Source: Betaproteobacteria bacterium (GTDB lineage Bacteria; Pseudomonadota; Gammaproteobacteria; Burkholderiales; Usitatibacteraceae). From it: a DNA stretch of 64,000 nt. Numbering within the stretch: the first letter of the stretch is position 1; each line of letters opens with the position of its first letter. Shown here in pieces: positions 827 through 59,920 of this stretch. The notes beneath the pieces were generated by a model, which worked only from the letters and a program-made list of their open reading frames with translations, searched no databases and had not been told where the DNA came from. The DNA lies in NCBI GenBank assembly GCA_016791265.1, contig JAEUMY010000007.1:124001-188000 (forward strand), in the 5' to 3' direction. Position numbers and translations under genes: made by a program.

Positions 827-838
827 ACGAATATTCGC
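827..838. repeat. One-mismatch copy of the GCGAATATTCGC palindrome
   Basis: ACGAATATTCGC in the polA/LOG divergent intergenic region; the first base is A instead of G. Confidence 0.6.
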
Positions 839-890
839 ATAGGCGGGCAGTGAATCACAGGACGCCCGCGCAACAGGCAAAGCACACAAC

Positions 891-1616
891 ATGACCGCAA
901 AAATCCCCAAGCTCAGCGATCCCGAAAAAATCATCCAGGCAGCCAATTCGGCGCGCGAATCATGGCGCATGTTCGAGATCATGTCCGAGTTCGTGCAGGC
1001 GACGGAGACGCTGGCGCTGATCAAGCCGGCGGTGTCGATTTTCGGCAGCGCGCGCACCCCCGTGGACCACCCGTACTACGCCCTGTCGGAGAAAGTGTCG
1101 CGCCTCCTCTCCGACGCGGGCTTCGCGGTGATTTCCGGCGGCGGGCCGGGCATCATGGAGGCGGCCAACAAGGGCGCCTTTGCGGGCAAGTCGCCCGCCG
1201 TGGGGCTGAACATCCGCCTGCCGCACGAGCAGCACGCGAATCCGTATCAGGACATCGGCCATACGTTCCAGCATTTCTTCACGCGCAAGGTGATGTTCGT
1301 GAAGTCGTCGTCGGCCTATGTGGTGATGCCGGGCGGGTTCGGCACGCTGGATGAATTGTTCGAGGCGCTGACGCTGGTGCAGACGGGCAAGACGCGCACG
1401 ATTCCGATCATTCTCATGGTGCGCGACTTCTGGGCGCCGCTCCTGGACTGGTTCAAGCACACGCTGGTGAAGGAAGGCATGATCAAGGCGGACGACCTGA
1501 ACCTGATTCAGGTGATCGAAGACCCGCAGGCGGTGGTGGACGCGATCTTCGATCACTACGCGGTGCGCGGCTTCGACCTGTCGCCGACGGAGCGGGCGAT
1601 GGAGATGAATCTCTGA
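891..1616 (+). CDS. LOG-family (TIGR00730-type) nucleotide-binding protein
   Basis: This 241-residue Rossmann-fold protein carries the two family signatures: GGGPGIMEAANKGA near residue 83 and PGGFGTLDE near residue 147, with TRKVMFV between them. LOG proteins hydrolyse nucleoside 5'-monophosphates such as cytokinin or AMP phosphoribosides to base plus ribose 5-phosphate. The bacterial substrate here cannot be told from sequence. An N-terminal extension of about 45 residues precedes the core, as in the longer proteobacterial subgroup. It is transcribed away from polA and is the first of a plus-strand run leading to thrB. Confidence 0.88.
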   Translation: MTAKIPKLSDPEKIIQAANSARESWRMFEIMSEFVQATETLALIKPAVSIFGSARTPVDHPYYALSEKVSRLLSDAGFAVISGGGPGIMEAANKGAFAGKSPAVGLNIRLPHEQHANPYQDIGHTFQHFFTRKVMFVKSSSAYVVMPGGFGTLDELFEALTLVQTGKTRTIPIILMVRDFWAPLLDWFKHTLVKEGMIKADDLNLIQVIEDPQAVVDAIFDHYAVRGFDLSPTERAMEMNL

Positions 1617-1622
1617 TCTGTT

Positions 1623-1661
1623 GGGTAGGCGGTAGGCGCGAGGCGGAAGGCGGTGGGTGGG
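1623..1661. repeat. GGCGGAAGGC/GGCGGTAGGC dispersed repeat, copy 1
   Basis: A G-rich run of GGTAGGCG, GAGGCGG and AAGGCGG units lies directly after the LOG stop codon. It resembles the arms at 2156-2242 and 11681-11766. A perfect GCGAATATTCGC follows immediately. Confidence 0.65.
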
Positions 1662-1665
1662 CCTT

Positions 1666-1677
1666 GCGAATATTCGC
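1666..1677. repeat. GCGAATATTCGC palindrome
   Basis: Perfect copy, extended to 14 bp (T...A), between the LOG gene and the DUF2782 gene. Confidence 0.95.
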
Positions 1678-1754
1678 ATTCGACGTGATCTGGCTCAGAA
1701 AGCGGTCATGGGCGGGTGCTAAACTCGCAGCGATGGCCCAAGGAGGGCCCTGCC

Positions 1755-2147
1755 ATGACCCGCAAACCGTTTCGTTTGAATCTCTGCCTGCTGACTGCCG
1801 TGCTGGCCGCAACGCTTGCGTTGCCGGCCGCCGCGCAGACTGCCCCCTCATCCGCGCCGAAGAAGCCACCCCGCCCGGCCAATCTGGAAAAGCTGGAGGA
1901 TGTGCCGCCGCCGCCGAACACGCTGATCGACCCGAAGGTGAAGCCGGAAGAAACCATCCGCGAGGAGGGCGGCAAAAAGATCATCGAATACCGCATGAAG
2001 GGCAGGCTCTACAAAATGCGCGTCATCCAGCCGGACGGAAAGAGTTATTGGCTGATCGATCCCAAGGGCGACGGCAAGTTCATCCAGGATGAAAAAGGCG
2101 TCGCACCCACCAACTCGGTGCCGATGTGGGTGGTGTATGAGTGGTGA
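1755..2147 (+). CDS. DUF2782 domain periplasmic protein
   Basis: The start is set at the ATG preceded by AGGAGG at 1741-1746, which gives 130 residues. Residues 1-29 form a signal peptide ending in ALPAAAQ. A Pro/Lys-rich linker follows, and then the DUF2782 core with EETIREEGGKKIIEYRMKG and YWLIDPKGDGKF. Proteins of this family sit between polA and thrB in many betaproteobacteria, and their function is unknown. The length is normal for the family. I see no enzyme motif; a periplasmic location is inferred from the signal peptide. Confidence 0.85.
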   Translation: MTRKPFRLNLCLLTAVLAATLALPAAAQTAPSSAPKKPPRPANLEKLEDVPPPPNTLIDPKVKPEETIREEGGKKIIEYRMKGRLYKMRVIQPDGKSYWLIDPKGDGKFIQDEKGVAPTNSVPMWVVYEW

Positions 2148-58409: not shown

Positions 58410-58413
58410 AGGT

Positions 58414-58608
58414 TCAACTCAATTCCTCAGGTAGTGAGCGCGGCTGCTCAATGAGTTTGAGCAGGGCCAACGCTTCGAAGGCCGCTCCTGTGATCAGCAA
58501 AGCGGCCAGCCAACCACCACTGGCTGCGACGAAGCCGGACATGTAAAAAACCAAAGCGATCATGAAGCAGACGCCTGCACTCAGGTGAAACACGGTCTTT
58601 TGGCTCAT
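58414..58608 (-). CDS. Small two-helix membrane protein
   Basis: GAGGAGA before the ATG at 58606-58608 supports this 64-residue frame. Two hydrophobic helices span about residues 8-28 (HLSAGVCFMIALVFYMSGF) and 32-52 (WLAALLITGAAFEALALL). It is 4 bp upstream of the ubiE gene and co-oriented. Function is unknown. Confidence 0.65.
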   Translation of the reverse strand: MSQKTVFHLSAGVCFMIALVFYMSGFVAASGGWLAALLITGAAFEALALLKLIEQPRSLPEELS

Positions 58609-58685
58609 GAGACTCTCCTCGGAGGGACGGGGTGGATGCTGCTGTGACGCAAGGATGATGGCGCGCGATCCAATCTGCGGCAACC

Positions 58686-59042
58686 TCAATGCGACGAACG
58701 ACTGGCGCCTGCCGCATCCAGCCGCTTCAGGTAAGAGGTCCAGTTGGCCTCCTGCTTCGTACCCAGTTCGTAAAGATAGTCCCAGGAGTAGATGCCGGTG
58801 TCATGCCCGTCCGAAAACACGAATTTGACCGCGTAGGCGCCCACCGGCTCGATGGCTTTGATTTCCACGTTTTCCTTGCCGGTCTGCAGGACTTCCTGGC
58901 CTGGACCGTGGCCGCGCACCTCGGCGGAGGGAGAGAACACCCGCAAATATTCGCAGGTGAACTGAAAGGTGCGGCCGTTCTCGTAGCTCACCTCCAGCAT
59001 GCGGGAGGCCTGATGGAGCTTGATTTCCGTGGGGGTGGGCAT
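58686..59042 (-). CDS. DUF971 domain protein
   Basis: This 118-residue protein has the DUF971 pattern: LEVSYENGRTFQFTCEYLRV near residues 17-36, EIKAIEPVGAYAVKFVFSDG near 60, and HDTGIYSWDYLYELG. DUF971 is the N-terminal part of gamma-butyrobetaine hydroxylase-like proteins and also occurs in Fe-S cluster and ubiquinone contexts. It is commonly found upstream of ubiE in betaproteobacteria, as here. A one-mismatch palindrome lies in the CEYLRVF codons. Confidence 0.88.
   Translation of the reverse strand: MPTPTEIKLHQASRMLEVSYENGRTFQFTCEYLRVFSPSAEVRGHGPGQEVLQTGKENVEIKAIEPVGAYAVKFVFSDGHDTGIYSWDYLYELGTKQEANWTSYLKRLDAAGASRSSH
58943..58954. repeat. One-mismatch palindrome in the DUF971 gene
   Basis: GCAAATATTCGC; here the reading frame is the third one (Cys-Glu-Tyr), which no perfect copy inside a gene uses. 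Confidence 0.5.
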
Positions 59043-59206
59043 GGGCGATGGCGGCAGGGGAAGGTCGGGAACTCGGCAATGCCGAGATTATCGCGCATGT
59101 ACGCCCGCCAGAACGGGCGGATCGAATTTGACAGCCCGTAACAAAAGTGTCATCACTGAAATGTAATCTTCACGGGCTGACAAAGTTGACGACAGAGAGT
59201 GCCAAG

Positions 59207-59893
59207 ATGGCCCCCAAGATACTGGTGGTGGAAGACGAACCCGCCATTCATGAACTGATTTCGCTCAATCTGGAAATGGCGGGCTACCGCGTCATCGGCG
59301 CGGACAGCGCCGAACAGGCGAGCACGCTTATCCAGAATGAACTTCCCGATCTCGCGCTCCTCGACTGGATGCTGCCAGGCGCCTCCGGCGTCGATCTGGC
59401 GCGCAAGCTCAGGAACGAGACCCGCACCAAAGAGCTCCCCATCATCATGCTCACCGCGCGTGGCGAAGAGGAGGACAAGCTGCGCGGATTGGAAACGGGC
59501 GCGGATGACTACATCACCAAACCGTTCTCCGTGCGCGAGCTGGAAGCGCGCATCAAAGCGGTGCTCCGCCGCCGCGCGCCCGAGATGACGGCCGATCCCA
59601 TCGAGTATCACGGCCTGCGCCTCGATCCCGGCACCCATCGCGTGACCGGGCACAGCAAGGGCCTTCAGATGGGGCCAACGGAATTTCGCTTGCTGCACTT
59701 CTTCCTCACCCACCTCGAACGTGTCTATACCCGCACCCAGTTGCTCGACTTCGTGTGGGGCGATCATGTGTTCATCGAGGAACGCACGGTCGATGTCCAT
59801 ATCCGCCGGCTGCGGTCCGCGCTGGAGCCGTCCGGCCACGACAAGCTGGTGCAAACGGTGCGCGGCAGCGGGTATCGGTTCGCGAAGGACTGA
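59207..59893 (+). CDS. phoB: Phosphate regulon response regulator PhoB
   Basis: The start MAPKILVVEDEPAIHELISL is chosen over a 20-codon extension. The 228-residue OmpR-type regulator has phospho-acceptor Asp53 in LALLDWMLPGASG, Lys near 105 in DYITKPFSVRE and a winged-helix domain at about 130-228. RTQLLDFVWGDHVFIEERTV and DVHIRRLRSALEP show the recognition helix. PhoB activates phosphate-starvation genes. phoR follows 194 bp later. A TGTCAT...TGTAAT pair lies upstream, but its spacing does not match a canonical Pho box. Confidence 0.93.
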   Translation: MAPKILVVEDEPAIHELISLNLEMAGYRVIGADSAEQASTLIQNELPDLALLDWMLPGASGVDLARKLRNETRTKELPIIMLTARGEEEDKLRGLETGADDYITKPFSVRELEARIKAVLRRRAPEMTADPIEYHGLRLDPGTHRVTGHSKGLQMGPTEFRLLHFFLTHLERVYTRTQLLDFVWGDHVFIEERTVDVHIRRLRSALEPSGHDKLVQTVRGSGYRFAKD

Positions 59894-59908
59894 AGTCTCC
59901 CTGCGGTT

Positions 59909-59920
59909 GCGAATATTCGC
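59909..59920. repeat. GCGAATATTCGC palindrome between phoB and phoR
   Basis: Perfect copy with T/A flanks, 15 bp after the phoB stop. Confidence 0.95.

Follow-up and report, generated by a model that had tools for sequence, protein, structure and literature searches.

The window analysed here, a stretch of 64,000 nucleotides (G000:C21:124001-188000) from a betaproteobacterial genome of 3,937,828 bases in 24 contigs, 89.93% complete, holds 25 exact copies of the 12-letter palindrome GCGAATATTCGC, and the whole genome (3.94 Mb) holds 1,624, or 0.41 per kb. Our analysis suggests, with due reserve, that this motif is a DNA-uptake-type tag, palindromic and self-propagating in the manner of an uptake sequence, because its copy number, its mismatch profile, its use of permissive places and its restriction to one lineage match those of uptake sequences, the palindrome being the misfit. 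The initial annotation of the window had listed 25 perfect copies, all of which were recovered exactly where it had placed them, with no 26th, and had suggested three roles. The first, a site for an orphan methyltransferase, is weakened because five Pfam families gave one low-GC cytosine methylase, one HsdM and one PrmB-like protein; the second, a site tied to a single replication region, is weakened because density is uniform over nine contigs; the third, a self-propagating conversion product, specified here as an uptake-sequence-like drive, fits best.

Chance and base composition are rejected as the origin of the copies by a reversed-pattern control, which has no copy in the same genome, and by the Markov expectation. 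In a sample of 845 kb, 379 copies were found against 0.10 expected under a second-order Markov model, which scales to about 0.45 for the whole genome and to about 0.007 per 64 kb, in agreement with the earlier estimate that far less than one copy should occur at random in the window. A further 400 kb of the genome holds 177 copies at unchanged density. In the 845-kb sample the hexamer AATATT occurs 459 times against 23 expected, and the core CGAATATTCG occurs 409 times, being flanked by G...C in 379. With both strands counted, T stands at -1 in 64% and at -2 in 41% of copies; many copies had been described as extended, and 13 of the 25 in the window do carry the extended form TGCGAATATTCGCA (counted from the flanks). 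Beyond about 16 bp the copies share little sequence. A few have long extended stems, but complementarity past the core is not general, reaching at least 5 bp in 7 of 133 intergenic copies.

Few copies are imperfect: the same 845 kb contains 62 one-mismatch forms, 30 of them deviating in the first or last base, and 49 two-mismatch forms. Relative to the base-composition expectation, over-representation for zero to three mismatches is 11,581-, 47.9-, 2.11- and 1.29-fold, a drop of 242-fold from perfect to one mismatch and of 23-fold from one to two. For the uptake sequences of Haemophilus influenzae and Neisseria gonorrhoeae, the parts of the source consulted give corresponding falls of 92- and 82-fold, followed by 9- and 7-fold (PMC1939737). 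Three control palindromes have no perfect copy in our sample, and their one-mismatch copies number 0, 0 and 1.

The copies are spread through genes and gaps, as had been noted at the outset, with 244 of the 379 inside predicted genes (753 genes from a home-made codon-pair predictor), 133 between genes and two across a gene edge. All three reading frames are in use, giving ANIR in 130 copies, xRIFA in 69 and xEYSx in 45. In the predicted proteins, ANIR occurs 133 times against 3.0 expected from residue frequencies, with the exact motif DNA in 130 of the 133; RIFA occurs 70 times against 4.0, with CGAATATTCGC beneath all 70 (by this 11-base test; 69 if the whole motif is required in that frame); and EYS occurs 78 times against 16.7, with motif DNA in 45. 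The codon ATA, rare here, falls in the motif in 69 of its 322 occurrences. Since the ANIR and RIFA peptides are nearly all motif DNA, it is the DNA that is conserved, synonymous bases included, and not the protein. A repeat acting at the protein level is rejected by the three reading frames and the intergenic copies.

How the coding copies arose was judged from 40 of 45 site alignments against the relatives G001 and G003 (gene identity of at least 45%, 12 aligned residues per side, some alignments being poor near the site). At the motif peptide, 38 of the 40 have no gap and two have one. Identity is 35% over the motif residues, 54% over the 24 flanking residues and 63% over the genes (flanks versus genes, p=0.0016); for the DNA uptake sequence (DUS) of neisseriae, the excerpt consulted likewise describes flanking residues as less conserved than their genes (PMC2397512). 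At the motif site of UvrD, six of 15 aligned relatives have RIFA, seven RIYA, one RVFA and one RIYP, that is, codons have changed and the peptide hardly has. SelA contains three motif copies; its relative P0122 (85% identity) has both ANIR peptides, with AYSQ replacing EYSQ, P0123 (77%) has EYSQ and lacks both ANIR, and P0124 (73%) and ten further aligned relatives have none, P0122 and P0123 being known as proteins only, in which the DNA motif is not visible. Given the ungapped alignments, which cover coding copies alone, and the UvrD and SelA comparisons, base substitution at sites that tolerate it, now and then at the cost of residues, seems to have produced the coding copies, which do not look like inserted units.

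Of the copies in the sample, 35% (133/379) are intergenic, although only about a tenth of the DNA (10%) lies between genes, where the density is five times that within genes. Between 4 and 10 nt past stop codons there are 32 copies, a sixfold excess over the 5.3 predicted from intergenic positions as a whole, whereas 4-10 nt upstream of start codons there are two against 5.8. The first ten codons of genes hold 22 copies against 7.2 expected, to which wrong start calls may contribute, and the last ten hold six, with no excess; the uptake signal sequence (USS) of Pasteurellaceae is reported to lean to gene termini in the portions consulted of its description (PMC2346458). The nine contigs sampled, which amount to 1.25 Mb of 3.94 and are not in chromosomal order, show a uniform density (chi2 9.8, 8 df, p=0.28). 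Contig C12 carries rnpA, dnaA, dnaN and gyrB (named by eye) in a row at 11008-17083, likely the origin of replication, and motif density on that contig is average. Mean spacing in the sample is 2.2 kb, with eight motif-free stretches of more than 7.5 kb listed. When pairs closer than 50 nt are left out, the coefficient of variation of the spacing is 0.83, compared with 0.98, 1.01 and 0.96 under uniform, class-preserving and gap-limited random placement; values as low were reached in 3/2,000, 0/1,000 and 1/1,000 simulations, respectively, so that the copies are more evenly spaced than under any of the three nulls.

The motif is nearly confined to this genome among those surveyed. Twenty-seven other genomes of the same family have 0-4 copies each, 33 genomes from other families of the order have 0-3, and a wider sample of 398 genomes from the order, without the window's own and with 45 that also figure in the family and order counts, gave 0-9. 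The initial annotation had staked its claim on an excess outside the window and on the counts in relatives, and with 1,624 copies genome-wide against 0-4 in the family and 0-9 in the order the claim survives. The highest count apart from the window's own genome, nine copies, belongs to a 2.3-Mb genome of another family (G067). A scan for two copies within 30 bases, covering 84,980 species by one genome apiece, revealed no other dense genome, although it is blind to genomes with a few hundred copies and may skip the window's own; it gave eight loci, and up to 8 kb of sequence at each contained just that pair. One locus with two copies, L045, proved to be a repeat gene of low complexity. In 400 kb from each of the relatives G001 and G003, no other iterated palindrome is comparable, the best 12-mer palindrome occurring 10 times against 2.0 expected. 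Closer kin do exist in public data, at 94, 92 and 84% identity for UvrD and 85, 77 and 73% for SelA; among the protein relatives listed, those named are betaproteobacterial or placed no finer than Pseudomonadota, and none is named as Neisseriaceae. Viral contigs contain the 14-mer in 102 stretches, and no phage link is seen because no examined stretch exceeds two copies. The 20-bp palindrome ATCTGCGAATATTCGCAGAT, identical in two viral contigs, where it occurs three times (L028, L046 and L065; IMG/VR) and twice (L036 and L044), is probably a phage operator sharing the 14-bp core. The initial annotation knew of no earlier description of the motif, and we found none in the literature searched. 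The 12-mer reportedly also occurs in a paper on DNA crosslinking by a natural product, unrelated to genomes.

Judging by the literature on them, the DUS of Neisseriaceae and the USS of Pasteurellaceae are alike to the present motif in being genome-wide sequences of about 9-12 bp with hundreds to thousands of copies, in the sharp fall from perfect to mismatched forms, in favoring permissive and intergenic places and in being bound to a clade (PMC1939737, PMC2397512, PMC3630211, PMC2346458). The same sources, as far as consulted, describe DUS and USS as absent from recently acquired genes, and here the 29 genes below 57% GC (17.8 kb) hold a single copy where the average coding density would give about 5.7, GC being a mere proxy for recent acquisition. 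By GC class, no copy lies in the 7.6 kb of genes below 52%, one lies in the 10.2 kb of genes at 52-57%, and genes above 66% have 0.45 per kb. The differences are that the present motif is perfectly palindromic, that its sequence departs from the three published motifs compared and that uptake and receptor are here predicted only. If the motif is an uptake sequence, cells would preferentially import motif-bearing DNA, a preference known from the uptake sequences of Neisseria and Haemophilus, and then recombine it into the chromosome; all over the genome, new copies would come about through base substitution. A symmetric, probably dimeric, receptor at the cell surface or in the periplasm would bind a site of about 16 bp, TTGCGAATATTCGCAA, and biased uptake with repeated biased recombination would push each locus to the perfect palindrome until neighboring sites sit about one recombination tract apart. 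In its more specific form, which can be put forward as a possibility, the motif would mark the third time that a genome-wide uptake sequence was invented independently and the first time that it was a palindrome; in this view a symmetric receptor reads TTGCGAATATTCGCAA and biased recombination wrote some 1,600 perfect copies, up to one per recombination tract, in one betaproteobacterial lineage.

The genome has genes of the kind that uptake would need. In the window, a ComEA-like helix-hairpin-helix protein of 113 aa (HHH_3) is encoded at 26592..26933 (+) and would be an expected component of DNA uptake, its tie to the motif being presumptive; HHH_3 matches at three places in the genome, this gene being one. 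The ComEC family matches at C18:72547, and the comEC open reading frame (ORF; L266:604-3204) has three motif copies in 2.6 kb. Two DprA-family genes are found, at C12:20844 and C9:42596-43207. Because these families are widespread, the presence of ComEC, ComEA-like and DprA genes is weak evidence and speaks for feasibility alone.

Several observations weigh against an uptake sequence. Of 14 control genomes, 10-11 also match the competence families (ComEC, HHH_3, DprA), and no receptor was identified by pilin-signature searches of 845 kb and of about 1.25 Mb: the first gave no match and the second, under other settings, gave one protein with a pilin-type N-methylation motif, type IV pili not having been searched as such. 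The three published uptake motifs compared are all asymmetric, to our knowledge no known uptake sequence is a palindrome, and exact symmetry usually indicates a soluble dimer. Pairs closer than 50 nt are slightly commoner than chance (12 against 8.3 expected), and the rise of density with gene GC may be partly a matter of composition and not of foreignness. A structural DNA-binding protein or a process of the HIP1 type (after highly iterated palindrome 1 of cyanobacteria) could likewise account for the even spacing, the bias to intergenic DNA and the restriction to a clade. Finally, in the parts of the literature consulted, the peak past stop codons is not a described trait of uptake sequences.

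A chromosome-organising or repair protein specific to the lineage, binding as a symmetric dimer and requiring a site about every 2 kb, with the copies under host selection, is the alternative that survives best, although we hold it to be rather unlikely. It accounts for the perfect twofold symmetry, for conservation that tapers outward from the palindrome (the T at -1 and -2), for the even spacing and for the uniform density over nine contigs. The ratio of 379 perfect to 62 one-mismatch copies is, however, sharper than a binding consensus requires. To find 1,624 sites, 11.2 bits would be enough, and the motif has as many as about 24.6 bits fixed, a figure that is a ceiling, since the logo was built from perfect copies alone. 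The Noc, SlmA and matS sites are also palindromes of 13-16 bp read by dimeric proteins, but a chromosome has only tens of them, which either avoid a particular region or mark it, whereas the present motif has 1,624 copies and is uniform in the sampled contigs.

Less probable still is a process of the HIP1 type, in which an orphan DNA methyltransferase would modify part of the palindrome and methylation-directed repair would create and keep the sites. The motif resembles HIP1 (GCGATCGC) and the alternate HIPs as a highly iterated palindrome of coding and noncoding DNA with GCG...CGC arms and deviations in the outer bases (30 of the 62), and the similarity in density that the initial annotation had drawn holds, 0.41 per kb falling among the lower HIP1 genomes in the range of 300-2,700 per Mb given in the excerpt consulted (PMC4390886). 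That the sequence is a different one is also borne out: it spans 12-14 bp instead of 8, its core is AATATT and not AT, the host is no cyanobacterium, and one-base deviants are few. Among these deviants there is no clear excess of C-to-T at an inner C (8 and 4 cases, compared with 9 of A5-to-G and 13 at the outermost C). A clearly matching methyltransferase was not found either. In this genome PF01555 and PF02086 have no match, although among 14 control genomes 11 and 4, respectively, have one, as do 13 and 4 among the 28 searched; PF02384 has one, a type I HsdM; PF07669 matches the same HsdM and a protein that is PrmB-like by eye; and PF00145 has one, a cytosine methylase of 513 aa (C21:118837-120231) adjoined by a Vsr protein and a GmrSD_N protein. 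Thus no orphan methyltransferase was found with five Pfam methylase families in a genome 89.93% complete, and one in the missing tenth or of another family could still exist. The cytosine methylase beside a Vsr gene is the one enzyme in favor of this process, but its specificity is unreadable from its matches, which in PDB are generic m5C methylases and in PADLOC, at best, generic type II. It and two neighboring predicted genes have a GC content of 44.5-49.5%, compared with about 63% for the genome, and have no motif, although motif-free stretches of that length are not rare.

These genes belong to a foreign-looking, motif-free restriction-modification island at C21:116227-125666, which reaches the first 1.6 kb of the window, adjoins polA (named by eye) and comprises the m5C methylase, Vsr, the GmrSD_N protein and a 374-aa protein without Pfam match. 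This Dcm/Vsr island was rejected as the driver of the motif by its low GC, by its lack of the motif and by motif peptides shared with kin whose SelA is 15-23% different, although this reasoning falls short of proof.

A mobile palindromic repeat, of the repetitive extragenic palindromic (REP), miniature inverted-repeat transposable element (MITE) or Correia type, or a transposon footprint, inserted as a unit, would agree with clustered copies, for instance the four that an intergenic low-GC stretch holds within 190 bp (C2:66571-66759, by the predicted genes) and the pair 3 nt apart in the window. It is nonetheless very improbable, given that 38 of the 40 aligned coding sites are ungapped, that six of 15 relatives also have the peptide of the uvrD copy and the remaining nine a conservative variant of it, and that the copies have little in common past about 16 bp and flanks that are seldom complementary. 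An element for transcription termination or mRNA 3' ends, to which the sixfold excess past stop codons and the long extended stems of a few copies would point, has just as slight a chance, with 244 of 379 copies inside predicted genes and no general T-run, by eye, at 47 copies lying no more than 14 nt from a stop codon.

Within the window, the copies illustrate the same range of settings. The first, at 1666..1677, is intergenic, with a stop codon 49 nt before. The copies at 18440..18451 and 25282..25293 each lie 9 nt after a stop codon, of an RNase E/G-family gene (16967-18430, +) and of a gene at 24130-25272 (+), respectively, and those at 39653..39664 and 46516..46527 are intergenic and 6 nt past the stop codons of genes 39671-40756 (-) and 46534-47598 (-), the latter palindrome being extended by its flanks. 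Also intergenic are the copies at 27097..27108, with the ComEA-like gene 163 nt upstream, at 35570..35581 and 41742..41753, both in convergent gaps, and at 59909..59920, 15 nt past a stop codon. RIFA is encoded by the copy at 5648..5659, within a uvrD-like gene (ORF 4318-6981, -) whose peptide is found in relatives too, and by those at 16166..16177 (predicted gene 15816-16283, +), 32596..32607 (DsbD-family gene 32501-34723, +), 40071..40082 (predicted gene 39671-40756, -), 45594..45605 (codon 7 of predicted gene 45305-45625, -) and 52385..52396 (codon 7 of an ABC1-kinase-family gene, 50884-52416, -). ANIR is encoded at 11177..11188 (predicted gene 9062-11674, +, which a long ORF on the - strand overlaps too), at 13430..13441 and, 3 nt away, 13445..13456 (both in ORF 13268-14566, +, with an Aldedh match), at 22454..22465 (predicted gene 22223-22936, -), at 34316..34327 (the same DsbD-family gene, 32501-34723, +), at 38585..38596 (codon 10 of predicted gene 37703-38623, -), at 43534..43545 (His_kinase-family gene 42934-45369, -), at 46663..46674 (predicted gene 46534-47598, -), and at 56065..56076 and 56806..56817 (predicted genes 55654-56655 and 56668-57282, both -, each also overlapped by a long + strand ORF). 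At least five one-mismatch forms had been claimed for the window, and five were located, at 827..838 and 61480..61491 (first base), 14134..14145 (G11 to T), 52590..52601 (A5 to G) and 58943..58954 (G3 to A).

It has long been asked why a single short sequence comes to fill some genomes: drive and selection have both been offered as explanations of uptake sequences, and the cause of HIP1 is still without agreement. The lineage described here offers a symmetric motif of 12-14 bp with few decayed copies that is near-absent from the sampled relatives, and therefore its origin should be datable and its driver findable by presence and absence; the 12-bp core and the even spacing also make direct tests easy. 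If the motif is indeed an uptake sequence, the phenomenon would reach beyond the Neisseriaceae and Pasteurellaceae. If it is not, the motif would be a HIP that lacks any evident methylase, and the methylase model of HIPs would be the weaker for it.

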